Shown here piece after piece: positions 41,605-63,951 of a DNA stretch of 64,000 nt. The notes beneath the pieces were generated by a model that made no database searches, was not told the origin of the DNA, and worked only from the letters and a program-made list of their open reading frames with translations. Each line of letters opens with the position of its first letter. Position 1 is the stretch's first letter. Position numbers and translations under genes: made by a program. This stretch comes from Natrinema salinisoli (GTDB taxonomy: Archaea; Halobacteriota; Halobacteria; Halobacteriales; Natrialbaceae), in contig NZ_CP084470.1 in the NCBI RefSeq assembly GCF_020405205.1, positions 310,001-374,000 of the forward strand, read 5' to 3'.

Positions 41605-41931
41605 CCTCCGTGCCCGCTATGACCGGCAGAATTCTCTCACTGCTATTGTTGTGTACCGCACTTTTCTCGGCAAACACGTCGAAACGAGTACCGCGCGAAA
41701 ACTGTTGGTCAGAGGTGCATTATGTTACAATATACGGTTACATTTCTTTGATATAGGTATTCTAATCACAGAATCCGATTTTGGGCCACAGTTTACGACC
41801 GGTTATAAAGGTTTGTGGGGAACTATAATGTATTACAACATACAAGCCATATGGGAAGCACATGAGTTGCCAAAATGGAGACGATCAGGTGCAGCGGTCT
41901 CGACCATCGGGATTCCCGGGGGAAGCTACCG

Positions 41932-42969
41932 ATGAGGCACAGTAGACGACAGCTGCTCGCCACGCTTGGGGCCGGAACGCTCGCAGGGTGCATAGGAGGA
42001 AGCGATAGCGAAGCGGAAGCGACGGAGGCATCGCTACTTCTCAATTGGAAACCCAATGGTCTCCACGTTCCGTACTATACCGCTATCGAACGGGGATTTT
42101 TCGAAGAGGAAGGAGTGGAACTGACCGAGATCGAACCTGGAGAGGGATCCGATTTTTCGGCGACTCAGGCCGGGTTGGGAAATACCGAATTCGCGATTAC
42201 GAGCGCCGATCAGATCCTGAACGCGAACGCGAAAGACCTCGACGTTGTCGCGGTCGGTGTTATCATGCAGCGTGGGCCAGTTCAAGTGTTCACCGCCCGT
42301 GACAATTTCGGAACGGAACTCACGGAAAGCGAGCAGTTGGCTGGTGTCACACTCGGGAGCGGTCCCGGGATGGTTCGGCAGATGACGGAAGCGTATCTCG
42401 AACACGAGGGGATCCTCGATGACGTTGAATACGTCGACAGTGGGTTCGATACGGTTCAGCAGTTGCTCTCCGGAGAAATCGACGCAGCCAGCGGCGTGTT
42501 CAGCGACGTCGTCGACGCTCGCCACCAGGGGTACGAGATCGATACGCTCTCGGTCAACGACGCGATCCCGGCCTACGGTCACGTTATCGCGACGTCGCGA
42601 TCGTTCGCCGACTCGAATCCCGACACAGTTCGATCGTTCCTTCGGGCGGCTGCTCACGGGGCAGTCTGGGCGAACAATAACCCCGACGACGCGACCGGAC
42701 TGCTCCTCGATGCCGTCCCGGAACTCGAGGACACACGCACGAATCAACGCGACAAGTGGAACGAACTCCGGACGGAGTTTATGCTGTCGGAAGCGATTCG
42801 AGAACACGGCTGGGGATGGAACGAGTCGGCCGTCTGGGAGTCGCTTCGAACCACGCTAGCGAACGGCGATTACCCCGGTGGAGAGGTGGACTCAGAGGAG
42901 GTCTGGACGAACGACTATCTCGATACGGACGACGAATACATCGGGGAATACGGTGAGCTGATCGAATAG
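41932..42969 (+). CDS. THI5/NMT1-type ABC substrate-binding lipoprotein
   Basis: This encodes about 345 aa from ATG 41932. The N-terminus has a Tat-like RRQLLATLGAGTLAGC with lipobox, so it is exported and lipid-anchored. The mature protein begins the NMT1/THI5 fold with LLNWKPNGLHVPYYTAIERG, then FFEEEGVELTEIEPG. Further segments are FAITSADQILNANAKDLD and GWGWNESAVWESLRTTLANG. Relatives bind hydroxymethylpyrimidine or related thiamine precursors, sulfonates or riboflavin. The W-K-P-N-G-L-H segment favours the pyrimidine or riboflavin type. It forms an operon with the permease gene five bases downstream. Confidence 0.88.
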   Translation: MRHSRRQLLATLGAGTLAGCIGGSDSEAEATEASLLLNWKPNGLHVPYYTAIERGFFEEEGVELTEIEPGEGSDFSATQAGLGNTEFAITSADQILNANAKDLDVVAVGVIMQRGPVQVFTARDNFGTELTESEQLAGVTLGSGPGMVRQMTEAYLEHEGILDDVEYVDSGFDTVQQLLSGEIDAASGVFSDVVDARHQGYEIDTLSVNDAIPAYGHVIATSRSFADSNPDTVRSFLRAAAHGAVWANNNPDDATGLLLDAVPELEDTRTNQRDKWNELRTEFMLSEAIREHGWGWNESAVWESLRTTLANGDYPGGEVDSEEVWTNDYLDTDDEYIGEYGELIE

Positions 42970-42974
42970 ACGGA

Positions 42975-43817
42975 ATGAGCGACGACAACTCGAAAACGGT
43001 GTCAGATCGACCGACGAGGAGGAACCCGAAGTCGTCACGGGCGGTCCGACAGCGCCTTCGCAGCCAGTTCGACGGCGATTTTCGCGGACCTGCACTCGGG
43101 ACGATACTATGCGTGCTCACCGTTGGATGCTGGCATATAGCCGTCGTCCTCGCTAACCTCCCGACCGTCGTACTTCCCTCTCCGGTGGAAGTGGGTGTCG
43201 CACTCGTCGACCTTCGCTGGATACTCGCCGGCGATGCTGCAGTAACAGCGCTGACAGCCGGACTCGGATTGGCTGCGGGGCTCGTCATCGGCACGATGCT
43301 GGCGTTTTTCATGGCCGTCTCTCGGTCCGCTGCAGCGGTTGTCCTCCCGTACGTAGTCGCGCTCCGTATCGCGCCGGTCATCGCTATCGCTCCGCTCCTG
43401 TTCCTCTGGTTCGGCCGCGGAATACCGGGAAAAGTCCTCCTCGTCACGACCTTGACCGTCTTTCCGATAACCATCGCGTCGCTCGACGGACTGCGATCGA
43501 CCCCCGAATCGTATCTCACGCTACTCCGGTCCGTCGGCGCGTCGACGTCGACGATCTTCGTCCACGTTCGACTGCCGGCGGCTGCCCCGAGCGTATTTGC
43601 CGGAGTGAAAAACGCAGCGACTCTCGCAGTCATCGGCGCGGTCGTTGCCGAGTTCGTGACGCTCGACGCCGGCATCGGGTATCGCGTGTTCGAAACATCC
43701 AGCGCACTCCAGACAGCCGAGTCGTACGCTGCACTCGCCGTCCTCTCCGGGCTCGGGCTCCTCTTTTACGGTATCCCATCACTCCTCGAACGGGTGGCCA
43801 GAACGAGATTCGAATGA
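42975..43817 (+). CDS. ABC permease, SsuC/ThiX type
   Basis: This 280-aa membrane protein of the BPD_transp_1 family has about six helices. The EAA loop is LRSVGASTSTIFVHVRLPAA, then APSVFAG. The first about 35 residues are a charged leader (TRRNPKSSRAVRQRLRSQFD). It follows the binding protein gene and converges with a second permease gene on the other strand, one base apart. There is no ATPase in this operon; the only candidate is in the opposite operon at 44586-45338. Confidence 0.88.
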   Translation: MSDDNSKTVSDRPTRRNPKSSRAVRQRLRSQFDGDFRGPALGTILCVLTVGCWHIAVVLANLPTVVLPSPVEVGVALVDLRWILAGDAAVTALTAGLGLAAGLVIGTMLAFFMAVSRSAAAVVLPYVVALRIAPVIAIAPLLFLWFGRGIPGKVLLVTTLTVFPITIASLDGLRSTPESYLTLLRSVGASTSTIFVHVRLPAAAPSVFAGVKNAATLAVIGAVVAEFVTLDAGIGYRVFETSSALQTAESYAALAVLSGLGLLFYGIPSLLERVARTRFE

Positions 43818-43818
43818 G

Positions 43819-44589
43819 TCAGGAAAGCGGCACTCGGCGTTGAACCATCCGCTGGCAGATGCCGACCAGACCGTACAACGCGACGCCGATGAACACGAGG
43901 ACGACGAGTGCGGCAATGATAATATCCGTTCGAAGGTTTTCGGAACCCAGAAGGATGAGGTAGCCGAGACCGCTGCTCGCGACGACCCACTCGGCCACGA
44001 TCGTACCGACGACAGCGAGCGTGACCGATTGTTTCAACCCGGCGAACACGTCCGGAATCGCATACGGCAACCTGAGATGAACGAACGTGTCCACCTTGCT
44101 CGCGTCGACCGAGCGGAGTAATTCGACGTGCCGTTCCGGCGTCCGTGAGAGTCCGGCGACAGTATTCAATACCAGCGGAAAGAACGTGATGAGCGCGATG
44201 AACAGGATCGCGGTCATCAACCCCGTCCCGAGGTAAATCAACAAGAGGGGAGCGACCGCTATCTTCGGGAGCACCCGGACGGTAACCAGATACGGATAGA
44301 GTGCCGTTCGGAGTACCGGGACCGTACCCAGGAGAATACCGAGTCCGAATCCGATGGCGATACCGATAGCACCGCCGTATACGACTTTTTCGAGCGTCGC
44401 GACGACGTTCCGAAAATACAACATCGGGCTGCCGAACAGTTGCGCGAGTACTGCCCCCGGAGACGGCAACAGAAACGATGGGATAGCCAGTAGTGTGGTT
44501 CCGAGCCACCACAGTGAAACGCCGACGAGCAACGCCACGAACGGGAGCACGATTTCGCTCCGCCGTACATCGATCGAGTTCCCTCTCAT
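43819..44589 (-). CDS. ABC permease, second SsuC/ThiX type
   Basis: This encodes about 256 aa from ATG 44589 (MRGNSIDVRRSEIVLPFVAL). The longer upstream frame overlaps the ATPase gene and looks non-coding. It has six helices and the EAA loop LRSVDASKVDTFVHLRLPYA, then IPDVFAG. It is homologous to the permease on the other strand. Its start overlaps the ATPase stop (ATGA), so the order of the minus operon is fusion regulator, ATPase, permease. The two permeases could form a heterodimer or serve two binding proteins. Confidence 0.88.
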   Translation of the reverse strand: MRGNSIDVRRSEIVLPFVALLVGVSLWWLGTTLLAIPSFLLPSPGAVLAQLFGSPMLYFRNVVATLEKVVYGGAIGIAIGFGLGILLGTVPVLRTALYPYLVTVRVLPKIAVAPLLLIYLGTGLMTAILFIALITFFPLVLNTVAGLSRTPERHVELLRSVDASKVDTFVHLRLPYAIPDVFAGLKQSVTLAVVGTIVAEWVVASSGLGYLILLGSENLRTDIIIAALVVLVFIGVALYGLVGICQRMVQRRVPLS

Positions 44590-45338
44590 CGTCTGTTTTC
44601 GACGCCGTCGTACAGCTCCCGTCTGATATCCGCGACCTGTTTCTGGTATTCGACGCTTCCGAGCAGCTCCGTATCCCGCCGGTCCGAAAAGTCGATCTCG
44701 AGCGTCGCTTTGATCCGTCCCGGCGTGTCCGTGACGACGACGCATCGGTCACCCAGAAACGCCGCTTCTGGAACGCTATGGGTGACGAACAATGTCGTCT
44801 TCTGTTCTCGTTCGTGAAGCCGACGGAGTTCGACGCCGAGTTGGTCTCGCGTGATCTCGTCGAGCGCGCCGAACGGTTCGTCCAGAAGCAAGACGTCAGC
44901 ATCGAGATGTAGGGCCCTGACGATAGCGACCCGCTGTTTCATCCCGCCGGAGAGCTCTCGCGGATACGCATCGATGAACCCGTCGAGTCCGACCGATTCC
45001 AACAGTGAGCGTGCCTGCGTCTCGTTCGGGGGTTTTCCCGCCATTCGGCGAAGGAACTGAACGTTCTCGAGTGCCGTCTTCCACGGGAGAAGTGTGTGAT
45101 CCTGAAAGACGAACCCGATATCACCGGCATCGCGACGGACCGCTGGTGCGTTGCCGTCTATCGTGACGGTTCCGTCGGTCGGGGACTCCAGTCCGCCGAT
45201 CACGCGCAGGAGCGTCGTTTTCCCACAACCAGACGGTCCGACGATAGTGACGAACTCGCTCGGCTGGATCTTCAGATCGATATCGGCGATCGCAGTGACA
45301 GTCTCGAAGGCGACGGTTGCGTCGTCGATAGCTATCAT
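44586..45338 (-). CDS. ABC ATPase, SsuB/ThiZ type
   Basis: This encodes about 250 aa from MIAIDDATVAFETVTAIADI. It has Walker A VGPSGCGKTTLLRVIGG, Q-loop VFQDHTLLPWKTALENV, signature ELSGGMKQRVAIVRAL, Walker B DVLLLDEPFGALDEITRD and H-loop TLFVTHSVPEA. It is the energising subunit for nitrate/sulfonate/pyrimidine-type uptake. The start overlaps the stop of the fusion gene upstream by four bases. It is the only ATPase for the two permeases at this locus. Confidence 0.92.
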   Translation of the reverse strand: MIAIDDATVAFETVTAIADIDLKIQPSEFVTIVGPSGCGKTTLLRVIGGLESPTDGTVTIDGNAPAVRRDAGDIGFVFQDHTLLPWKTALENVQFLRRMAGKPPNETQARSLLESVGLDGFIDAYPRELSGGMKQRVAIVRALHLDADVLLLDEPFGALDEITRDQLGVELRRLHEREQKTTLFVTHSVPEAAFLGDRCVVVTDTPGRIKATLEIDFSDRRDTELLGSVEYQKQVADIRRELYDGVENRR

Positions 45339-46582
45339 GATTTCGAAAACTGTTGCGTATGGGCCACTGCTGTCCGTACGCGCTCCCACTCGTCGTCACG
45401 GTGGACCCCCCAGCCCTCGTTTCGTCGGGCTCTACTATCGGCAAACGACTCGAGCGCTCGTCGGAACGTCCGCTCGATTTCCTCGTCTCCAGCGTCGACG
45501 GCGGCTGCAATTCGTCTCGCCGCCGGTGTCGGATCCGATCGCCCGGCACGCCATCCCAACATCGTCCCCGTCAGAAACCGCTCGAGCGGCTCTGTTCCCG
45601 TCTCGCTGGCCGATGGATCAACGACGAGTGACGGCCCGTAAATCGGGAACTGGTCCGCGATCGTGAGCACGTCCACTGTCTCGTCGTGGGGGAGCGCCCA
45701 CGGGTCCGAGAACGATCCCGCGACGACGTCGGCATCGCCGGTGCGGAGGGCCGCCGACTCTTCGCCCGTCGTTTCGAATATCTCGACGTCGTCGGCGACG
45801 CCTGCCTGCGAGAGGAACAGTTCGGCCAGCAGTCGCGTTTCCGTGTTCGGCGACATACCGATACAGCGATCACGGAGCTGTTCGCTCTCGGTGAGTCGCT
45901 CCCCGAAAACCGTTCGCGTCGTATACAGTACGGTCATCGCCCGCTGGTAGAGTACTGCGATCGGGGTGATCGAGTCGCCATCCCGTCGAGCATCGGTGAG
46001 GACGGCAGCACCGACGATTCCGACGTCGACGTCGCCGCCGGCGACGGCTCGAAGCGCCTGTTCCGAGCCATTATAGTGGACGAACTCGACGTCCACACCG
46101 ACGTTGTCGTACGTCCCTTCGATCTGTGCCGCATAGAACGGGACGTGAAGACCGTTCGGTCGCCAGTTGAATCCGAGGCGGATCGTGCCACGGTCGGCGG
46201 GAGTCGAACTCGACAGATCGGCGTTCGCGGTACCGATGAGTTCCGCGGCGCGCGTCGCGTACGCGTCGTGCATCGCCGTCTCGACCGTATGGTCGGTCGA
46301 CCACGCTTTCGGCGGCCGCCCTTCCTCGCTTTCTAGCGTCGTTTCCGTCACCAGCCCCCGATCGGAGAGGCGTGACAGCGCGTCAGCGACGGCCTGGTTG
46401 CCGAGGCCAGTTCCGAGGCGAATATCTATCTGTCGTGCTCGCGGGTCCTCGATACGATCGTCTTCGACGCGGCGAACGAGGTACGCGAGGACGCGACCGG
46501 ACTGCGCTCCGAGTCCGAGTCCGAGATCAGCGGCGAGCTGCTCGTCGTCACCGTCCAGCACCCAGTGCTCCGCTGCTTTCAT
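45335..46582 (-). CDS. winged-helix-THI5/NMT1 binding-domain fusion protein
   Basis: This encodes 415 aa without signal peptide or lipobox. Residues about 15-110 look like a winged helix: a first helical part (LGAQSGRVLAYLVRRVEDDR), then a recognition part (QIDIRLGTGLGNQAVADALS, then RLSDRGLVTETTLESEEGRP, then PKAWSTD). Residues about 134-415 form a binding-protein domain homologous to the lipoprotein at 41932-42969 (RLGFNWRPNGLHVPFYAAQI, GVHRDDEWERVRTAVAHT). I infer a cytoplasmic regulator that senses the transported compound with a reused binding-protein domain. It heads the ATPase-permease operon, with overlapping starts and stops. Confidence 0.85.
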   Translation of the reverse strand: MKAAEHWVLDGDDEQLAADLGLGLGAQSGRVLAYLVRRVEDDRIEDPRARQIDIRLGTGLGNQAVADALSRLSDRGLVTETTLESEEGRPPKAWSTDHTVETAMHDAYATRAAELIGTANADLSSSTPADRGTIRLGFNWRPNGLHVPFYAAQIEGTYDNVGVDVEFVHYNGSEQALRAVAGGDVDVGIVGAAVLTDARRDGDSITPIAVLYQRAMTVLYTTRTVFGERLTESEQLRDRCIGMSPNTETRLLAELFLSQAGVADDVEIFETTGEESAALRTGDADVVAGSFSDPWALPHDETVDVLTIADQFPIYGPSLVVDPSASETGTEPLERFLTGTMLGWRAGRSDPTPAARRIAAAVDAGDEEIERTFRRALESFADSRARRNEGWGVHRDDEWERVRTAVAHTQQFSKS

Positions 46583-47149: not shown

Positions 47150-49318
47150 TCACTGACCTGGATCGACGAACCGATCGGTATCATCGTCCCGCCGGTCGAT
47201 TTCCTCGATCGCCGCGTCGAAATGGGAGGCGGTCAGAGTGATCTGGTCGGGATCCGTCGTCGGACTGGCGACGTGCTGCCTGACCGCGACGGTCGCAGCC
47301 TCGCGACAGACGGCTTCGATGTCGGCACCGACGTAGCCGTCGGTTCGTTCGGCGAGAGTTCCGAGATCGACGTCGTCGGCGAGGGGCCGGTCCCGCGTGT
47401 GGACCGCAAAGATCTGGTGGCGCGCGTCCTCGTCCGGAGCGTCAACGTGAATGTGGCGATCGAACCGTCCGGGACGCATCAACGCGTCGTCGAGGAGATC
47501 GGGGCGGTTCGTCGTCGCGATGACGACGACGTCTTCCAGTTCTTCCAGCCCGTCGAGTTCGGTCAGCAGCTGTGAAACGACGCGTTCACCGACGCCGGCA
47601 TCGGTACTGCTGCCGCCGCGTTCGGCCGCGATCGCATCAATTTCATCGAAAAACAGGACGGTCGGCGCGTTCGTTCGCGCTTTTTCGAATACTTCGCGAA
47701 CGCCTCGTTCGGACTCGCCGACATACTTGTTCAAGAGTTCCGGTCCCTTGATCGAGATGAAGTTCGACTGGGCCTCGTTGGCCACGACCTTCGCCAACAG
47801 CGTCTTGCCCGTCCCCGGTGGCCCGTACAGCAACACGCCCTTGGCCGGTCGAAGCGCGACCCGGTCGAATGCGTCGGGGTGTTCCAGCGGCCACTGGACG
47901 GTCTCGCGGAGCCGTTGGGTCGTTTCAGCCAGTCCGCCGACGTCGTCCCAGGTCGCATCCGGCACTTCCACGAACACCTCCCGGAGCGCCGAGGGGGTCG
48001 CACTCCGGTGGGCTGCGTCGAAATCAGCTGCCGTGAGCGCCAGAGATGCTACCGTCGCGTCGTCGGGATGGTTCTCGTCCGGATGAATCCCGTTCCGGCG
48101 GAGGGTGTGTAACGCCGCCTCGCGAATGAGAATCTCCAGATCCGCGCCGACGAATCCGTGAGTGCGTTCGGCGAGCGACGCGATGTCGACGTCGGCCGCG
48201 AGCGGCATCCCGCGGGTCAGAATCCGAAGGATTTCCTCGCGGCCGTCGCGGTCGGGAACGCCGATTTCGATCTCGCGATCGAACCGGCCGGATCGGCGCA
48301 GCGCTGGGTCCAACGTCTCGGGCTGAGTGGTCGTCCCGATGACGACGAGGCTGTTGTCGGCCTCGAAATCGTCCATGAGCGAAACGAGCGGCCCGACGCC
48401 GTCGGCCGAATTCCCGGTATCGTCCCGCGTTCCGGCGATCGCATCGAGTTCGTCGATGAAGACGACCGCGGGTTCGTTCGCGGCGGCGTTCTCGAACCGA
48501 TTTCGGAGCCGTTCCGCCGTTTCGCTGCGGCGTGCTGCGACGATTGCAGGTCCGCTAATGGTTTCGACGTGGATGTCCGCCTCGTCCGCGAGCGCCTGAA
48601 CGATGAGCCGCTTTCCGGTCCCGGGCGGACCGTGCAGTAATACGCCGTTCGTCGGTTCGACGCCGAGTCGGCCGAAGACGTCGGGTGAGCACAGCGGTAG
48701 TTCGACGGTCTCTCGAATCTGAGCGATTTCCGCGTCTAGACCGCCGATATCGGCGAAGGTGATCCTCGCCGAGCCGCCGGTGCTGTCGATAGCAGTCGAA
48801 AGCTCTTCCGCGGGCTGGGGTGCTACCGAAATCCGCGTCCAGTCGCGTACGAGAACGATGTCACCCGGTGCCGCCGCAGTGATGCGGACCGGAACCGTCC
48901 GCCGAGCGGGGTCGTCTGCCCCTCGTGATCGCAGGGTGACCGGAACGACCTGGCCGACGACGACGGCTCGACTGATGAGTTCGTCTCGCAGGGAAAGATC
49001 GAAATCGGCCCCGTCGTCGAACCCTTCCGGGAGCGCAACCGTGACGCTATCAGCTGGAGAAACGTCGACCGGTTCGACAGTAACCGTTTCTCCGGCCGCG
49101 ACACCTGCAGTCCGTCGAACCAATTCGTTCGTGCGGATAGTTCCGTCGTCGATATCGTCGGTCGGCATCACCTGTGTGACTGCACGGTTCCCGTCCGATC
49201 CGCGAACGAGGAGAAAATCGCCGCTGTCGAGGCCAAGCTCGGCGAGCGTTCGACGACCGACGACTGTGAGGCCACGACCGGGATCGCTATCGGCAAGCGG
49301 CTTCATGCTGAGTTCCAT
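47150..49318 (-). CDS. CDC48/VAT-like double AAA+ ATPase, copy 1
   Basis: This encodes about 722 aa from MELSMKPLADSD (49318), chosen by comparison with copy 2. A Cdc48-type N domain spans about residues 5-170, followed by AAA domain D1 and AAA domain D2. D1 has GPPGTGKR, with Arg in place of the Thr/Ser of Walker A, Walker B VVFIDELD and the arginine-finger region RRSGRFDRE. D2 is complete: GPPGTGKTLLAKVVANEA, LFFDEIDAIAAERGG and LMRPGRFDRH. Such proteins unfold or remodel protein substrates. It is divergent from the 313-aa gene and PQQ dehydrogenase 1, which suggests an activator or assembly role like MoxR proteins in methanol dehydrogenase clusters. Confidence 0.9.
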   Translation of the reverse strand: MELSMKPLADSDPGRGLTVVGRRTLAELGLDSGDFLLVRGSDGNRAVTQVMPTDDIDDGTIRTNELVRRTAGVAAGETVTVEPVDVSPADSVTVALPEGFDDGADFDLSLRDELISRAVVVGQVVPVTLRSRGADDPARRTVPVRITAAAPGDIVLVRDWTRISVAPQPAEELSTAIDSTGGSARITFADIGGLDAEIAQIRETVELPLCSPDVFGRLGVEPTNGVLLHGPPGTGKRLIVQALADEADIHVETISGPAIVAARRSETAERLRNRFENAAANEPAVVFIDELDAIAGTRDDTGNSADGVGPLVSLMDDFEADNSLVVIGTTTQPETLDPALRRSGRFDREIEIGVPDRDGREEILRILTRGMPLAADVDIASLAERTHGFVGADLEILIREAALHTLRRNGIHPDENHPDDATVASLALTAADFDAAHRSATPSALREVFVEVPDATWDDVGGLAETTQRLRETVQWPLEHPDAFDRVALRPAKGVLLYGPPGTGKTLLAKVVANEAQSNFISIKGPELLNKYVGESERGVREVFEKARTNAPTVLFFDEIDAIAAERGGSSTDAGVGERVVSQLLTELDGLEELEDVVVIATTNRPDLLDDALMRPGRFDRHIHVDAPDEDARHQIFAVHTRDRPLADDVDLGTLAERTDGYVGADIEAVCREAATVAVRQHVASPTTDPDQITLTASHFDAAIEEIDRRDDDTDRFVDPGQ
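47279..47990. repeat. long direct repeat, AAA+ D2 region, copy 1
   Basis: About 700 bases covering the D2 ATPase domain are almost identical to 54264-54985, with a one-codon length difference, although D1 and the N domain of the same two genes are much more diverged. The abrupt change in similarity suggests recent gene conversion within an older duplication. Confidence 0.75.
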
Positions 49319-49508
49319 ACGCTTCGCTCGAGCAATAGTGTCGCAATACATATAAAAATACAGTAATATTGAGTTGGCACTTGTATGGTTTCGTTATTTC
49401 TCATACTCTGCAGATCTAGAATCTTAATTTGTACTCTCCACTCAAATGACCCGTATGTATATATCTGTAATATGACTGTAAAGATAGTAAAGTTATTTGT
49501 AGTATCAC
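49319..49508. promoter_or_regulatory. divergent promoter region, unit 1
   Basis: This AT-rich spacer of 190 bases lies between the AAA+ gene (minus) and the 313-aa gene (plus). A TATA-like tract (GTATATATCT, about 49458-49467) is about 45 bases before the plus-strand ATG, and further AT tracts lie near 49340-49375 for the minus gene. The equivalent spacer in unit 2 has a TATA-like tract at a similar distance. Confidence 0.4.
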
Positions 49509-50450
49509 ATGGCAGAAGTCAGTGGTGTTGAGATGATCAATGCTAACAGGCCACAACCAACGGCGGAAGAAGAAGCACAGTTGACCGAACACCTCGGCGC
49601 CGATAGTTCGGTTGTTGGTGAAGAACTGACGCTATCAGCGCTGAAATCGGCACTCGAGGGAGAGATCAACGACGAGTTCGCCTCGATGGGCGAGGCGATT
49701 CGAAACGATCTCGAAGGGGAACTCGACGCGGAGTTAGTCAGTTCGGCGTTGTCGGACCTCGAGACACAGATCGACCGGCTCTCGGAGGTGCGGGAAGCGG
49801 GCATCCCGGACGGGAAGCGCGAACCCGAACGACTCTACCGGGAGCTCGTCGAACCGGGGTGGCGGCTGTACGATCACCTCCTCGACGTCGGCTTCTTCGA
49901 AAGCGTCGACGCGAACGCCGTACGGTTCTCCGCCGAACACATCAGGAACACCGGTCGCGGCCTGATCGAGGCGAACCCGCTCACCTCGGAGTTAGAGGCG
50001 ATCGGCTTCGACGAAGGGGAACAGCTCAGTCTGCTCGCGGACCTAGTGAACAACGATAGGGAACTCGCGCGGTGGGTTCCGACGAAGGAGATCCCGGCCG
50101 ACGTCGAGTTCAACGTCGACTTCGTCCCACCGCTTCACCAGCGAGCCGCCGGCGGCACGCTGCTGTGGATACAGACCCTCGACGTCCACCTGTGGCAGAA
50201 ACGAGTGCTCGTTACCGACGAGATACTCGACGACGGCTATTGGGACGTCAAGGGAATGCTGGGCGGACTGTACCTGCTCGGTCGGGTCGCGCGCGAGATC
50301 GCGTCCGAGGACGAACGAACGCTCACAGACGGACAGCTGATGGCGGCACTGACGGCCAGTGCTGCCATCATGATCATCAACCAGCAGAAGATCTGCCAGG
50401 ACGTATTTTACATCACCGAAGCGATGCGGGCGGAACCAGAAGCGAGGTAA
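49509..50450 (+). CDS. conserved helical partner protein of PQQ dehydrogenase, copy 1
   Basis: This encodes 313 aa of a family I do not recognise. It is helical and acidic, with no signal peptide and no Cys-based metal motif. The best conserved block against copy 2 is RWVPTKEIPADVEFNVDFVP, then PLHQRAAGGTLLWIQTLDVH and a region ending in MLGGLYLLGRVAREIA. A second block is LTDGQLMAALTASAAIMIIN. ATG 49533 (MINANRP) is an alternative start that fits copy 2 better. The dehydrogenase gene begins six bases after its stop, so the two proteins are made together. A structural or maturation partner is the natural inference. Confidence 0.8.
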   Translation: MAEVSGVEMINANRPQPTAEEEAQLTEHLGADSSVVGEELTLSALKSALEGEINDEFASMGEAIRNDLEGELDAELVSSALSDLETQIDRLSEVREAGIPDGKREPERLYRELVEPGWRLYDHLLDVGFFESVDANAVRFSAEHIRNTGRGLIEANPLTSELEAIGFDEGEQLSLLADLVNNDRELARWVPTKEIPADVEFNVDFVPPLHQRAAGGTLLWIQTLDVHLWQKRVLVTDEILDDGYWDVKGMLGGLYLLGRVAREIASEDERTLTDGQLMAALTASAAIMIINQQKICQDVFYITEAMRAEPEAR

Positions 50451-50456
50451 TCACAG

Positions 50457-52169
50457 ATGTCAATAGAAGAAGACAGAGCGGTTCAGGCTGCACAGGATAC
50501 GGTCGTTCGAGAGACCGATAACGGTTATCGGGTACTCGGTTCGCCCGAGGAATCGGTCACCCACCAACACGACATCGATCGCATACCGCAATTCGACGTC
50601 ACCCAGGAGATGATAAGCGAATCCGGTGAGAATCCGGAGGCGTGGCTGACGTACGGCGGTAACTACGAAATGCACCGCTACACGACGGCCGACGTCATCG
50701 GCCCGGACAACGTAAGCGACCTCGAGGTCGAGTACGACATCAGGGTCGGTTCCGGGTCGAGCATGGAGGGATCGCCGGTCATCGTTCCCGGGGATCCGAC
50801 GGTGATGTACCAGTCGAACGGGCCGAATCACATCAAGGCGATCGACGCCCGTAACGGTGACGTGCTGTGGAGTTACACCTACGCGGTGCCCTCCGACGTG
50901 GTACTGTGCTGTGACGACAATAATCGCGGACCCGCCGTCTGGCAGGACAAGGTGTACATGACCACCCTGGACTCGGGGGTCGTCGCACTCAACCGGTACA
51001 CCGGCGAAGAAGAGTGGTACACGTCGACGGCGGACCACGAACGGGGCTACTCCGCGACGTGGGCACCGATCGTCCAGGACGGAACCCTCTACACGGGATC
51101 CGCCGGCGGCGAGTACGGCGTCCGGGGCTTCCATACGGCTATCGACGCCGAGACCGGTGAGGAGGAGTGGTTCACGCGGACCTGCCCCGAAGAGGAGTGG
51201 GTCGGCGACTCGATCAACCAGGCTGCCGGCACCAACTGGATGTCGGCGACGTACGACGAGGAACGGGACGTCCTGTACATGCCGGTCGGCAACCCCGGAC
51301 CGGACTTCGACGGCTCTGTCCGTCCGGGACCGAACCGCAACACGTGCGGGACGCTGTGTCTCGACGCCGAGACCGGCGAGCGCCTCTGGTTCCATCAGGA
51401 GTCGGCCCACGACGTCTGGGACTACGACTCGGCGTCGCCGCGGATGCTCATCCGCGACCTCGAGTTCGACCACCGCGACGAGATCAGAGACACGGTCGTC
51501 AACGCCGGCAAGACCGGCTGGGCGTACTCGATGGACGCAGAGACGGGCCAACTCATCACCCGATCGGATCCGGGCGTCCAGCAGCTGAACATGTTCAGCA
51601 TGACCCCGCACATCGACGACGGTCGCCGGGGGACGTTCATGCCCGGCGGGATGGGCGGCTGTGACTGGCACCCGGCGACGTACAACCACGAGACCGGGCT
51701 GGTCTACTTCAAGATGCACAACAACGCCCAGGAGGCGTGGTGGCGGTTCGAGGAGTTCGAGGAGGGCCGCAAGTACTGGGGCGGTATCCTCGAGGACGAG
51801 ACCGAAGCGATGCCCGACGAGTACAACGGCCACATCAGTTCCATCACCGCGTTCGATCCGACGACGGGGAAACTCGTCTGGCGCGACTGGATCGATAGCG
51901 ACACCTACATCTGGGGCGGAACGATGTCGACCACGACCGGCCTGATGTTCGCCGGGACCCAGAACGGCCAGTTCATCGCCTACGACGCCGCGGACGGCGA
52001 GCGCCTCTGGGAGTTCGACACCGGCGACGCTCCGCTCTCGTCCAGCCCCGTCAGCTGGTACGATCCCGACGAGGGCAAACAGTACATCGCCATCCAGGTC
52101 GGCGGTAGCGGCTGGCTCCGCCGCGGCAAGCGGGACGACCGCGTCGTCGTCTTCTCGCTGGCCGAGTGA
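50457..52169 (+). CDS. PQQ-dependent alcohol/methanol-type dehydrogenase, copy 1
   Basis: This 570-aa protein has the eight-bladed propeller fold of quinoprotein alcohol dehydrogenases, which oxidise alcohols to aldehydes. Landmarks are vicinal Cys151-Cys152 (VLCCDDNNRG), Glu219 (AGGEYGVRG), the PQQ-stacking Trp261 (GTNWMSATYD), Asn279 (VGNPGPDF), and the catalytic Asp322 with Asp324 in WDYDSA. The second Asp marks lanthanide-dependent XoxF/PedH-type enzymes, whereas calcium enzymes have Ala, Ser or Thr there. Heme motifs are absent. No Sec or Tat signal is visible, which is unusual because bacterial relatives are periplasmic. It is co-transcribed with the 313-aa gene. Confidence 0.92.
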   Translation: MSIEEDRAVQAAQDTVVRETDNGYRVLGSPEESVTHQHDIDRIPQFDVTQEMISESGENPEAWLTYGGNYEMHRYTTADVIGPDNVSDLEVEYDIRVGSGSSMEGSPVIVPGDPTVMYQSNGPNHIKAIDARNGDVLWSYTYAVPSDVVLCCDDNNRGPAVWQDKVYMTTLDSGVVALNRYTGEEEWYTSTADHERGYSATWAPIVQDGTLYTGSAGGEYGVRGFHTAIDAETGEEEWFTRTCPEEEWVGDSINQAAGTNWMSATYDEERDVLYMPVGNPGPDFDGSVRPGPNRNTCGTLCLDAETGERLWFHQESAHDVWDYDSASPRMLIRDLEFDHRDEIRDTVVNAGKTGWAYSMDAETGQLITRSDPGVQQLNMFSMTPHIDDGRRGTFMPGGMGGCDWHPATYNHETGLVYFKMHNNAQEAWWRFEEFEEGRKYWGGILEDETEAMPDEYNGHISSITAFDPTTGKLVWRDWIDSDTYIWGGTMSTTTGLMFAGTQNGQFIAYDAADGERLWEFDTGDAPLSSSPVSWYDPDEGKQYIAIQVGGSGWLRRGKRDDRVVVFSLAE

Positions 52170-56311: not shown

Positions 56312-56499
56312 TCGGTCTGTATTTTCGTCGCCATCTACATCAACCCGTGGGTATTGTTATCACCCATGTCCGTTCTCCCACGATTGGATGGAAAATTGTG
56401 CGAATATTCGAAATGAAATATTACAAATTGTCCCGTAAGCAGATATATGCCGTTAGTGATAACATTTAATAGCCGAGACTAGGTGTGATAGAACACCTC
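56312..56499. promoter_or_regulatory. divergent promoter region, unit 2
   Basis: This AT-rich spacer lies between AAA+ copy 2 and the 308-aa gene. A TATA-like tract (AGATATATGC, 56441-56450) is about 50 bases before the chosen ATG at 56500. Position and spacing resemble the spacer of unit 1, but I see no long conserved operator shared by the two. Confidence 0.4.
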
Positions 56500-57426
56500 A
56501 TGGGTAGGTCATACAAACCACAAATCACCGCTCGAGAGAGGGGAAAACTGACAACACAATTAGGGGTCGCCGAATCGAGCGTCGACTCGGAGCCGACGCT
56601 CGAGGAACTCCGAGACGTGATCGATTCGGGAACGGATTCGCAGTTCGCGACGATGGGCGAGTCCATCCGAAGCGATCTAACGGGGAAGCTCGAGGGAGAC
56701 GTCCTCGAGTCGGCGATTTCCGACCTCGAGGAGGCGTTCGAAGGCGCTGAAACGGTTCGTGAAACCGGTGTCCCTGCCAGACACGGCCCCGGAGACGAGG
56801 GGGTAGACGAACTCTACCGCGAGTTGATTGACCCCATCTGGGATGCCTACGATCATCTCGTCGATGTCGGCCTCTTTGAGAGTCTCGAGGAGAACCTGCC
56901 GGCGTTTACGGCGGAACACATCGATCATACGGCAAGAGAAGTAGTGAACGCGGACGGGTTGCTCGACGACCTGACCGACTGCGGCTTCGACGACCGCGAG
57001 CGGACGGCACTACTCCTGACCGTCGTCGACAATAACACGCGTCTCTCTCGGTGGGTTCCCACGCGGGACATCCCCGACGGAGTCGAATTCAACGTCGACT
57101 ACGTTCCACCGCTGTATCACCGAGCTATCGGCGGGGGATTACTGTGGATCAAGGCACTCGATAGGCATCTCGTCCAGAAGGAAATCCTCCTCACCGAGGA
57201 CATCCTTGACAACGCGTTCTGGCGGACGAAAGCGATCCTCGGGGGAGTCTACCTGTTCCTCCGGGCCGTCCGAGATATAGCCACGACTGACGGGGAGTTG
57301 ACCGACGGCCAACTGGTCGCCGCGCTCAGTGCGGGAGCCGCGATTACCATCGTCAACATGGAAGAACTGATGCAGGAAGTGTTCTGGCTCCACGAGGAGA
57401 AACGAGCGCCGTCATCGGCACGATAA
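56500..57426 (+). CDS. conserved helical partner protein of PQQ dehydrogenase, copy 2
   Basis: This encodes about 308 aa from ATG 56500 (MGRSYKPQITARERGKLTTQ); GTG 56485 is an alternative. It is homologous along its whole length to the 313-aa protein of unit 1: for instance RWVPTRDIPDGVEFNVDYVP, then PLYHRAIGGGLLWIKALDRH, and LTDGQLVAALSAGAAITIVN. The family is unknown to me. Retention of the gene directly before the dehydrogenase in both units (21 bases here) shows that the two products are functionally tied. Confidence 0.8.
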   Translation: MGRSYKPQITARERGKLTTQLGVAESSVDSEPTLEELRDVIDSGTDSQFATMGESIRSDLTGKLEGDVLESAISDLEEAFEGAETVRETGVPARHGPGDEGVDELYRELIDPIWDAYDHLVDVGLFESLEENLPAFTAEHIDHTAREVVNADGLLDDLTDCGFDDRERTALLLTVVDNNTRLSRWVPTRDIPDGVEFNVDYVPPLYHRAIGGGLLWIKALDRHLVQKEILLTEDILDNAFWRTKAILGGVYLFLRAVRDIATTDGELTDGQLVAALSAGAAITIVNMEELMQEVFWLHEEKRAPSSAR

Positions 57427-57447
57427 CGACACTAACGAGATTCAACA

Positions 57448-59172
57448 ATGGCAGCAGAAGATCAAGAAGACAAAGCCGTCAAGGCCGCAAGCGAAACGAT
57501 CGTCGAAGAGACCGACCTCGGATATCAGGTGTTCAACGCTCCGGACGAGTCGGTTCTCGACCAGCACGACACCGATCGAATCCCCCGGTTCGACGTCACA
57601 CAGGAGATGCTCGACGAGGGGAGCGGAGACCCCGAAAGTTGGCTGATGTTCGCCAACAATTACGAGGGACACCGCTACGCGACGGCCGACGTCATCACGC
57701 CGGATAACGTCGACCAACTCGAACTCGAGTACGAGATGACGGTCGGCGCGAACTCCAGCATGGAAGGGTCGCCCGTCATCGTTCCGGGCGATCCGCCCGT
57801 AATGTATCAGACGAACGGACCGAGTCACGTGAAGGCGATCGACGCCCGCGAGGGGGAGACCCTCTGGAGCTACACCTATCCCGCGCCCGAGGACGCGGTG
57901 CTGTGCTGTGACGATAACAACCGCGGCGTCGCCGTCTGGGAGGACAAGATCTACATGACCTCACTGGACTCCGGCGTCCAAGCGCTCGATCGCTACACGG
58001 GCGATGAGCTCTGGTACACGTCCACCGCGGACTACAAGGAGGGGTACTCCGCGACGTGGGCTCCAATCGTGTACGATGGCATCCTGTTCACCGGGAGCGC
58101 CGGTGGGGAGTACGGCGTGCGCGGGTTCCACTGTGCGATCGATGCGGAAACCGGGGAAGAACTCTGGCGGATGCACCCCTGCCCCGAAGAGGAGTACATC
58201 GGCGACTCGATCAAGCAGTCCGGCGGCACCAACTGGATGAGTCCGACGCTCGATACGCAGCGTGAACTGCTCTACTTCAACGTCGGCAATCCGAGCCCGG
58301 ACTTCAACGGCACCGTCCGACCGGGGCCGAACCGCAACACGTGCTCGACGATCGCGGTCGACATCCACACCGGCGAGATCCAGTGGTCCCACCAGGAGTC
58401 CGCACACGACATCTGGGACTACGACTCCGCACAGATGCGAATGATCCTTCGCGACGTGGAAATCGACCACCGCGACTACGAGGGAGATATCGTCTACAAC
58501 GCCGGGAAGACCTCGTGGACCTACACCATGCATCCGGATACCGGCGACCTGCTCGTGCGTGGCGAACCCATCACTCAGCAGATCAACTTCATGAAGATGG
58601 TGCCCCACGTCGACGAGGAGCGCGAGTACGTCATGCTGCCGGGACTGCTCGGCGGGCAGGACTGGCAGCCGTCGGCGTACGATCCCGGGACTGGTCTGTG
58701 CTACCATAAGGTGCTCAATACGCCCCACTCGGTAAAGTGGCGCAGCGAAGAGTACAGGCCCGGAGAAAAGTTCTGGGGCGGCGTCGTCGACGTCGAACCC
58801 GACGAAGAGGACGTGCCGGACGACTACAACGGCCACATCAGTGCTATCGCCGCAGTCGACCCCACCACAGGACAGGTCGTCTGGCGCGACTGGATCGACA
58901 GCGACCGGTACCTCTGGGGAGGGACGATGACGACTGCTACCGGCCTCCTGTTCGCCGGGACACAGAACGGAAACATGGTCGCCTACGACTCCGAGAACGG
59001 CGAGCGGCTCTGGGAGTTCGATCTCTCAGACAAGGCTATCGGCGGTGATCCGGTCAGCTGGTACGATCCCGGGACCGAGAAACAGTACGTCGCGATCCAG
59101 GTCGGCGGCAGCGGCTTCGTCGGTCGCGGGCCGCGCGGTGACAGACTCGCCGTCTTCTCGCTTGAAGCGTAA
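57448..59172 (+). CDS. PQQ-dependent alcohol/methanol-type dehydrogenase, copy 2
   Basis: This 574-aa paralogue of the dehydrogenase in unit 1 has the same active-site set: vicinal Cys153-Cys154, Glu221, Trp263, Asn281, and Asp324 with Asp326 (IWDYDSAQ). It therefore also carries the lanthanide-type second Asp. Heme motifs and signal peptide are absent. Differences cluster in the region after the active site (HPDTGDLLVRGEPITQQINF against DAETGQLITRSDPGVQQLNM), which may alter substrate range. A HEAT-like protein gene follows 64 bases downstream. Confidence 0.92.
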   Translation: MAAEDQEDKAVKAASETIVEETDLGYQVFNAPDESVLDQHDTDRIPRFDVTQEMLDEGSGDPESWLMFANNYEGHRYATADVITPDNVDQLELEYEMTVGANSSMEGSPVIVPGDPPVMYQTNGPSHVKAIDAREGETLWSYTYPAPEDAVLCCDDNNRGVAVWEDKIYMTSLDSGVQALDRYTGDELWYTSTADYKEGYSATWAPIVYDGILFTGSAGGEYGVRGFHCAIDAETGEELWRMHPCPEEEYIGDSIKQSGGTNWMSPTLDTQRELLYFNVGNPSPDFNGTVRPGPNRNTCSTIAVDIHTGEIQWSHQESAHDIWDYDSAQMRMILRDVEIDHRDYEGDIVYNAGKTSWTYTMHPDTGDLLVRGEPITQQINFMKMVPHVDEEREYVMLPGLLGGQDWQPSAYDPGTGLCYHKVLNTPHSVKWRSEEYRPGEKFWGGVVDVEPDEEDVPDDYNGHISAIAAVDPTTGQVVWRDWIDSDRYLWGGTMTTATGLLFAGTQNGNMVAYDSENGERLWEFDLSDKAIGGDPVSWYDPGTEKQYVAIQVGGSGFVGRGPRGDRLAVFSLEA

Positions 59173-61975: not shown

Positions 61976-62962
61976 TCACCCGCCGGTCCCCGCTGGGTTC
62001 CGGCCGATTCGTGTCGCGTACTCCCGTATCGGCGGCGCATCCCGGTCGATATACGCGTTCGTCCACGCATCATCGGGATCGACGTTGCCGTCAAGGAGGT
62101 CGGTTTCGGCGAGGAGTTCGCCGAGCCGTCGCCAGCGGTCGGCCTGATGGACTCCCCACCCCGCTTCACGTACGTGGTCGGAATACTGAAGCTCCGAGGC
62201 AGCCGCGCGGAACTTCGCCAGTTCGATCTCGCTTCGTCGCTCCAGCGTCGCATTCCGATCGACGAGCGCATCGAGCGCCGCTTCCGGGTCGTTGGTCGCT
62301 TCTATCCATCCTCGTGCGATCGCGCGAAGCAGCGATCGAACCGCGTCCGGGTCATCTTCCGCGAATTCGCGGTTTGCGACGAGCATCATCCCGTAAACGC
62401 CGAGCGACTCGCCGATGGCAAGCTCGTCGGCCCGCCGGTCGTACTCGCGTTCGAGTTCGCGCCCGTTCGTGACGACCCCGACGGCTGCATCGACGCTTCC
62501 GTCGAGTAGTTGATGTTCGACCCGGTGATGCGTGTTCGGATCCACCTCAAGGAGGTCGACGGTATCTCTGATACCGACCTGTTCCAGGGCTTGTGCGGCG
62601 AGGATCCTCGTTTTCGTCGCCGACGGTGCGACCGTCTTTCCGGCGAGCTGAGACAGGTCTGTCAACGGCTCACCGAAGACATCACGGAGCGTGTAAATCG
62701 CCGCGGGAGTCCGTTTCGTCAGCGCGGCGACTGCTAGCGGGTCGAACCCCTCGCTCCCTTTCGCGAGGACGGCGCTGGCACCCGCGAGACCCACATCGGC
62801 GCGACCGCGAGCGGTCTGTTCAGCCGCGAACGGCGAGCCGTGCCCCTCGACGAACTGAACGTCGAGCCCTTCCGCTTCATAAAATCCCTTTCGGCGGGCG
62901 AGAAAGTACGGTGCCTGAAAACCGTTTGGCTCCCAGTTGAGCTGGAAGGTGACGGTAGTCAT
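61976..62962 (-). CDS. THI5/NMT1-type binding-fold protein without signal peptide
   Basis: This encodes about 328 aa from MTTVTFQLNWEPNGFQAPYF (62962). The 42 codons upstream in frame are Arg-rich antisense-like sequence. The fold matches NMT1/THI5 binding proteins (LARRKGFYEAEGLDVQFVEG, ADVGLAGASAVLAKGSEG, GWGVHQADRWRRLGELLAE). There is neither signal peptide nor lipobox, so it is predicted to be cytoplasmic or to act with another exported subunit. It overlaps the gene upstream by four bases. Its relation to the dehydrogenase module is inferred from position only. Confidence 0.8.
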   Translation of the reverse strand: MTTVTFQLNWEPNGFQAPYFLARRKGFYEAEGLDVQFVEGHGSPFAAEQTARGRADVGLAGASAVLAKGSEGFDPLAVAALTKRTPAAIYTLRDVFGEPLTDLSQLAGKTVAPSATKTRILAAQALEQVGIRDTVDLLEVDPNTHHRVEHQLLDGSVDAAVGVVTNGRELEREYDRRADELAIGESLGVYGMMLVANREFAEDDPDAVRSLLRAIARGWIEATNDPEAALDALVDRNATLERRSEIELAKFRAAASELQYSDHVREAGWGVHQADRWRRLGELLAETDLLDGNVDPDDAWTNAYIDRDAPPIREYATRIGRNPAGTGG

Positions 62963-63951
62963 CGGTCTTCCTCCAAAAGGCGGAACGTTCCCGACGGAAT
63001 GTGGTCGACGCCGAGCGCGTTCGATCCGGCGACCTCGAGCAGCTGATCGAACAGTTGTTCCATCCCCTGAACCGTCTCGGCGTCCCACTCTCGGACGACC
63101 ATGTCGCGCCAGCCGTCCCGGATCGCCGCGACAATCACTGGCTCGTCGTCGGTCATCAGTTTCTCACCGATTTCGTCCCAGAGATCGTCGTCGGTCAGGA
63201 GCCGATCGACGGCGTCGCGATACGCCGCCGTGAACCGGCGAACGGTAGTCTCCCGTTCGGCGAGGAATTCCTCACTGGTCAGGAACGTCGACACCGGTAC
63301 GCGGTTATCCGTCCGAGCCAGACGCTGCACGACGTCGGCCATCGAAACGACCGCTTCGTACGGTCCTCGTTCCGTAATTTCGGGAACGATTTGCCAGAAC
63401 TGGAGCGCTGCATCTACTTCGCCGTCGCGAAGCATCCGGGTGAGTTCGACCTTCGAGCCAGCTTCGATTGGCGTGGCCGTTTCGTCGGGGTCGAAGCCGT
63501 AGTACGATCGACACGCCGCACGGGTGAGAATCCAGTTCTTGTCGAGGCGCCGAACGACACCGATACGGTGGCCCGAAAGGTCAGCCAATCCCCCGATATC
63601 GGTACGTTCCGGCGCCACGAGTTTACCGACCGTTCGACCGTACGGATAGATGGCAACGATATCGGCACCGCGAGAGCGTTCGCGGGCGGTGGAAATGTAG
63701 TCGATATCGATGAGATCGGCATCGCCGTCCTGTAAGCGCGCTTCGACGGTCTCCATCCCCCCTTCCAACGTGTCGGAGACGAGTTGGACGTCCAGGTGGA
63801 AGCCGTGCTCGTGGTCGATGCCAAGCCGTTTGATCGTATACAGCATGTAACGGGGGCTTCCGTTGTGTTCGAAGCGAGCACGCATAACCGGACGACCGTC
63901 GGCGGCGTCGTGGTGAGCGTCCAGCACGGCCTGTTGGCGTTCGACGTTCAT
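62959..63951 (-). CDS. second periplasmic-binding-fold protein without signal peptide
   Basis: This encodes 330 aa starting MNVERQQAVLDAHHDAADGR. From about residue 25 it resembles ABC-type nitrate/sulfonate binding proteins (RFEHNGSPRYMLYTIKRLGI, then DGDADLIDIDYISTARERSR, then LSGHRIGVVRRLDKNWILTR). There is no signal sequence. It is coupled on both sides by ATGA overlaps: to the binding-fold gene downstream and to a gene that enters from the window edge. Function is unknown: it may be a cytoplasmic ligand-binding enzyme subunit rather than a transporter part. Confidence 0.75.
   Translation of the reverse strand: MNVERQQAVLDAHHDAADGRPVMRARFEHNGSPRYMLYTIKRLGIDHEHGFHLDVQLVSDTLEGGMETVEARLQDGDADLIDIDYISTARERSRGADIVAIYPYGRTVGKLVAPERTDIGGLADLSGHRIGVVRRLDKNWILTRAACRSYYGFDPDETATPIEAGSKVELTRMLRDGEVDAALQFWQIVPEITERGPYEAVVSMADVVQRLARTDNRVPVSTFLTSEEFLAERETTVRRFTAAYRDAVDRLLTDDDLWDEIGEKLMTDDEPVIVAAIRDGWRDMVVREWDAETVQGMEQLFDQLLEVAGSNALGVDHIPSGTFRLLEEDR

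Follow-up and report, generated by a model that had tools for sequence, protein, structure and literature searches.

Analysis of the 64-kb window (the whole stretch of DNA that was analysed) revealed a gene whose product joins a DNA-binding-like N-terminal domain to a binding domain of the type found in ABC importers. This locus raises the questions of whether the protein is a regulator and, if so, which genes it controls and which compound it senses. The gene and the parts of its product are located as follows.

45335..46582, minus strand: fusion regulator, 415 aa, ATG start
Residues 1-95 (~46298-46582), minus strand: winged helix, MarR/TrmB-like, from fold model and orthologue Pfam matches
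Residues 100-120, minus strand: linker helix
Residues 130-414 (~45338-46195), minus strand: periplasmic binding protein (PBP)-fold sensor, NMT1/THI5-type, from Pfam and alignment

The Pfam search matched NMT1 (PF09084) to residues 146-352 of the regulator (E=3e-17; 63.5 bits against a gathering score of 20.5), and the same family was matched by 40/40 orthologues. The lipoprotein encoded at 41875-42969 aligned with residues 125-408 of the regulator (293 aa, 29% identical, E=5e-33), which bears out the homology between the binding domain and the nearby lipoprotein claimed in the preliminary description. By both sequence and fold, the nearest PDB relatives of the sensor are ThiY (3ix1), the thiamin-binding 4nmy, and Thi5, at an identity of only about 18% and within a family, NMT1, that has many ligands. 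Like ThiY, Thi5, and SsuA, the sensor has the NMT1 Pfam domain and a W-x-P-N-x-x-H motif, and it superposes on 3ix1 with a Z of 27.6; unlike these proteins, it is fused to a winged helix and is not exported.

The N-terminal 125 residues of the window's regulator, searched alone, gave no Pfam HTH match; among the orthologues, the N-domain matched MarR_2 in 11/40 and MarR, GntR, or TrmB in others. The preliminary description had claimed a winged helix and proposed a structure prediction of the N-domain as a check. This prediction was run, and the domain, modelled alone, is predicted to be a winged helix (pLDDT 93.1), with the element order H-H-H-H-strand-strand-long helix that corresponds to a winged helix followed by a linker helix. 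The whole regulator was modelled in AlphaFold2 with 40 orthologues (mean pLDDT 91.5, pTM 0.90). MarR-type regulators, TrmBL2, and archaeal Lrs14-type proteins were the closest folds to the N-domain, with Z values of about 9-11. These values are moderate, but numerous unrelated entries sharing this fold concur and span the entire domain. The fusion of a winged helix with an NMT1 domain is real.

A signal peptide was found in none of the regulator orthologues, the start position aligns in about 55 of them, and the protein has no membrane segment (maximum 19-residue hydropathy, 1.43), in agreement with the earlier claim that it has no export signal. Identity as an ABC solute-binding protein was rejected because the protein has neither an export signal nor a lipobox. 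The orthologues are labelled "ABC transporter substrate-binding protein" by PGAP, so that an unnamed regulator family, widely conserved in haloarchaea, is filed in databases as an ABC transporter receptor. That label would suit a moonlighting or inert protein, i.e., a former ABC solute-binding protein with an added winged helix, no longer exported and without a regulatory role. This reading is highly improbable, since both domains keep invariant residues despite wide divergence in the orthologue alignment and since the dyad described below tracks the presence of the regulator.

The reuse of a transport-type binding fold as the sensor of a regulator had been described as rare. This is wrong because the LysR regulators, the most abundant family of bacterial transcription factors, have a sensor of the same fold (PMC4486848). 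They share with the regulator an N-terminal DNA-binding domain, a linker helix, a C-terminal type II PBP-fold effector domain, and a cytosolic location (PMC4486848), and CbnR and OxyR appeared in the fold search with the regulator. The switching logic is similar, but in the regulator an NMT1/THI5 sensor is paired with a winged helix of the archaeal MarR/TrmB-like kind. LysR membership was rejected, as HTH_1 was matched by 0/40 orthologues and LysR_substrate (PF03466) scored 13.5 bits on the regulator, under the cut-off of 28. TrmB and TrmBL2 share the winged helix and the long linker helix (TrmBL2, Z 9.9 over 100 residues), and the TrmB winged helix was matched in 1/40 orthologues; however, the sugar-binding domain of TrmB is unrelated to the C-terminal sensor, and the presence of NMT1 in its place rules out membership in the TrmB family. 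ThiR-type archaeal regulators are defined by an HTH and a ThiN domain. This type was rejected as well, because ThiN was unmatched in the Pfam search of the window protein and 40 orthologues, the sensor being NMT1. The C-terminal domains of CmpC and NrtC from cyanobacterial importers likewise reuse a transport PBP as a cytosolic sensor (folds 9uak and 8wm7), but there the PBP domain is fused to an ATPase and acts on transport rather than on DNA. PBP-fold sensors are thus common, as in LysR, and it is the pairing of a winged helix with NMT1 that is new. Literature searches, mainly of papers outside subscription, gave no account of this fusion or of PQQ import in haloarchaea.

The regulator gene lies among the genes of an ABC importer.

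41800..41834, no strand assigned: candidate operator, imperfect dyad TWAAAYNWTT-N6-AAWNRTTTA, over the BRE/TATA of the lipoprotein-permease operon
41875..42969, plus strand: importer lipoprotein (Tat, solute-binding, NMT1 family, ThiY-like)
42975..43817, plus strand: ABC importer permease A
43819..44592, minus strand: ABC importer permease B, likely ATG at 44592, overlapping the ATPase stop
44586..45338, minus strand: ABC importer ATPase, its ATG at 45338 overlapping the regulator stop codon

As had been stated, the regulator heads an ATPase-permease operon: the stop codon of the regulator gene and the start codon of the ATPase gene share nucleotides, and the ATPase gene in turn overlaps the gene for permease B. 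The lipoprotein and permease A genes form a plus-strand operon that converges on it. In the orthologous loci, the ATPase gene is immediately downstream of the regulator in 40/59, a permease gene is downstream in 38/59, and a converging lipoprotein gene is present within 5 kb in 38/59. The mature Cys of the lipoprotein is conserved, and an alternative start is possible at 41932.

A motif search of the importer promoters of 22 loci revealed a conserved 30-nt block (25.7 bits, versus 13-14 in shuffled sets), which contains the BRE, the TATA box, and an upstream arm. The window was then scanned with a motif model made from other genomes, its own site being left out, and the best match within the 64 kb was 41800-41834 (15.3 bits for the minus strand and 13.9 for the plus); the motif sites of the window and of locus L065 were placed by eye. 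In three relatives that bear the importer but not the regulator, the upstream arm scored -10.8, 2.2, and -16.4, compared to a median of 11.8 in regulator-bearing genomes, and the dyad was absent or degraded; these genomes probably represent one lineage and therefore count as one independent observation. The regulator gene has a basal promoter of its own, with a TATA box 25-35 nt 5' of the ATG in most orthologues, and a search across the orthologues for a shared operator upstream of it yielded this TATA box only. The preliminary description had named two spacers as operator sites: the one at 41.7-41.9 kb holds the best candidate (41800-41834), whereas the one at 46.6 kb has only the basal TATA.

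The architecture bears out the sensor role that had been assigned to the protein, which is probably a cytosolic one-component regulator of a cofactor-import/PQQ-dehydrogenase system. A dimer would bind the dyad through its winged helices and, most likely, block TFB/TBP at the lipoprotein-permease promoter; repression is favored because the dyad overlaps the BRE/TATA. Closure of the PBP cleft on a ligand would shift the linker helix (residues 100-120) and with it the spacing of the winged helices, so that DNA binding is switched. The ligand itself would belong to the PQQ-dehydrogenase system.

Clustering of 60 loci revealed PQQ alcohol dehydrogenases, a ~313-aa protein, Na/Ca exchangers, and aldehyde ferredoxin oxidoreductase as recurrent neighbours of the regulator, together with ferredoxin, CDC48-type ATPases, and additional PBP-fold proteins. 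VOC genes are also present in the regulator islands. The window contains the following of these genes.

49509..52169, plus strand: pair 1, ~313-aa protein and signal-less PQQ alcohol dehydrogenase (HDVWDYD, lanthanide-type)
56485..59172, plus strand: pair 2, ~313-aa protein and signal-less PQQ alcohol dehydrogenase
61976..62959, minus strand: signal-less ThiY/Thi5-like PBP-fold protein, family SBPc
62959..63951, minus strand: signal-less PqqT-like PBP-fold protein, family SBP12 (A5), keeping the PqqT LDKNWIL motif

The link between the regulator and PQQ alcohol dehydrogenases spans many haloarchaeal genera. A PQQ alcohol dehydrogenase is encoded in 57/59 regulator-bearing genomes versus 11/332 others; the Fisher p=1e-54 for this association ignores relatedness and is an upper bound on its strength, as it overstates the independence of related genomes. 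The nearest PQQ dehydrogenase gene lies <=20 kb from the regulator in 46/59 genomes, while ~0.8 would be expected by chance. Eight genomes have a close PQQ enzyme but neither the regulator nor a close lipoprotein, so the importer is not the sole route. One Natrinema-type clade has kept the regulator and the PQQ enzyme with no local importer. This arrangement suggests that the role of the regulator extends beyond its own transporter to the PQQ system. In the loci of this clade (L077-L081, L085, and L086), the regulator adjoins an amphi-Trp gene, and several of them also have genes for an ArsR-like wHTH protein and a Na/Ca exchanger by the regulator.

Hydroxymethylpyrimidine (HMP), riboflavin, and sulfonates had been listed as candidate ligands. 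This list finds no backing in the conserved context, which is PQQ-dependent alcohol oxidation: no thiamine, riboflavin, or sulfonate genes recur across about 60 regulator neighbourhoods, whereas genes for PQQ enzymes do. A role in regulating the uptake of HMP/thiamine precursors (or of riboflavin/sulfonates) would agree with ThiY, 4nmy, and Thi5 as the best PDB relatives and with the importer lipoprotein, the profile of which matches ThiY/Thi5 and not PqqT. Given the neighbourhoods, the low identity to these relatives, and the many ligands of the family, it is nevertheless rather improbable. Somewhat less unlikely, but still doubtful, is that the regulator responds to a compound of the PQQ-dehydrogenase pathway, either its alcohol substrate or an aromatic/aldehyde intermediate, and that the importer brings in that substrate. 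Catabolic regulators usually follow substrate induction, and aldehyde ferredoxin oxidoreductase, ferredoxin, and VOC genes share the islands; simple alcohols, however, need no ABC importer, and the PqqT homologue indicates cofactor handling.

The two PQQ alcohol dehydrogenases of the window (50457-52169 and 57448-59172) are 64% identical to each other, and both have the lanthanide-type D-x-D motif. The ~313-aa protein encoded 5' of each has no Pfam match, and the promoters of the pairs are AT-rich, with no strong shared motif emerging. A hydrophobic N-terminal segment was found in 0/34 clustered PQQ dehydrogenases, including both from the window; HD-x-WD-x-D is kept in 32/34 and a vicinal Cys-Cys motif in 29/34. 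Their best solved relative is the quinoprotein ethanol dehydrogenase 6zcv, which we take to be the lanthanide-dependent PedH, and the extra Asp aligns. From these sequence features, i.e., the missing hydrophobic N terminus, the mostly kept D-x-D, and the aligned Asp, the haloarchaeal enzymes look cytosolic and lanthanide-type. Bacterial PQQ alcohol dehydrogenases, where studied, are periplasmic. CDC48-type AAA ATPases (47150-49351 and 54122-56311) adjoin the PQQ dehydrogenase genes; by analogy, they are possibly the counterpart of the MoxR-type activators of bacterial methanol dehydrogenase.

Searching 29 regulator-bearing haloarchaeal genomes for PQQ biosynthesis revealed PqqC in none (absent from 29/29) and no PqqE over the cut-off; the positive control, S. 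meliloti pSymB, gave 428 and 610 bits. The PqqE matches in haloarchaea were rejected as generic radical-SAM proteins, far under the cut-off and seen in most control genomes too. Judged by gene content, these haloarchaea are apparently unable to make PQQ, a vitamin-like cofactor, so that PQQ must come by import if the enzymes use it; PQQ is probably imported. In these islands, PQQ alcohol dehydrogenases that appear cytosolic in archaea occur with a cytosolic PqqT-like protein and without PQQ biosynthesis, which raises the question of how PQQ, and perhaps lanthanides too, enters archaeal cells through the cytoplasmic membrane and by what means the cells sense it.

PqqT binds PQQ with a Kd of 50 nM and assists the uptake of external PQQ, and mutation of its Lys142 alters metal affinity (PMC12124388, PMC12828617). 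The profile of the SBP12 family (A5) matched PqqT over 285 positions (E=4e-30, against 0.07 for the PDB entry that came next), and its LDKNWIL motif includes the Lys142 position (9b1u numbering, inferred offset of 27). In Azospirillum, the gene for the homologue is flanked by that for a PQQ dehydrogenase on one side and by those for its own permease and ATPase on the other. PqqT of Methylobacterium (9b1u, 9ooz) thus has a sequence relative, SBP12, in the same island and shares its fold with the sensor of the regulator (Z about 20), but the regulator profile itself found no match to PqqT at E up to 1. This likeness of fold was rejected as a ligand clue, being unspecific: many NMT1 proteins score equal or better. 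The signal-less PBP-fold proteins show about 75% mean column identity, compared to 54% for the importer lipoprotein, and are perhaps PQQ carriers or XoxJ-like activators. Related islands have three overlapping signal-less PBP-fold genes (SBP14, SBP12, and SBPc; L141 19108-21967), and the window holds two of them, SBP12 and SBPc, at 61976-63951.

PQQ is a plausible putative ligand of the regulator and the likeliest single candidate, because PQQ enzymes and a PqqT homologue, all apparently cytosolic, occur in a host that lacks PqqC and PqqE. Tentatively, the regulator may be a direct PQQ sensor, whose operon would import PQQ for cytosolic lanthanide-type dehydrogenases with the help of the PqqT-like carrier. 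Against PQQ, the profiles of both regulator and lipoprotein point to ThiY/Thi5 rather than PqqT, and the SBP12 protein has no signal peptide and is hence not the receptor of the importer. That the regulator senses exactly the imported compound, as had been proposed, is plausible; a segment reading G-E-E in the regulators differs in the lipoprotein and in the signal-less paralogues, so that the ligands of the three need not match.

Bacterial PQQ-dehydrogenase clusters include the PBP-like helpers XoxJ and PedG as well as ABC importers that have been linked to the uptake of lanthanides (PMC7391723, PMC12997753), and a metal ligand was therefore kept as a candidate. By analogy with Lut and PedA1A2BC, the importers of lanthanide-dependent clusters, which carry lanthanides (PMC7391723, PMC12997753), the ligand might be a lanthanide or calcium chelate, as would suit the D-x-D motif of the enzymes and the Na/Ca exchangers. 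This is quite unlikely, as the sensor domain is nearest to binders of organic ligands. Na/Ca (sodium:proton) exchanger genes lie by the regulator in 35/59 loci (for example, L141 7018-9168), and their products could be there to provide Ca2+ or lanthanides or to clear them.

Among 84,980 species genomes scanned, the fusion turned up in Halobacteria only; there, a full-length orthologue occurs in about 59/391 genomes, several families apart. In a tree of NMT1 domains, regulators, lipoproteins, and signal-less paralogues each fall on one branch side (SH-aLRT 100, 84, and 99), and the fusion therefore probably had a single origin. A plasmid of Natrinema sp. SYSU A 869 (L142 12001-13380) carries a 92% identical regulator that is split into several annotated ORFs by frameshifts or sequencing errors.
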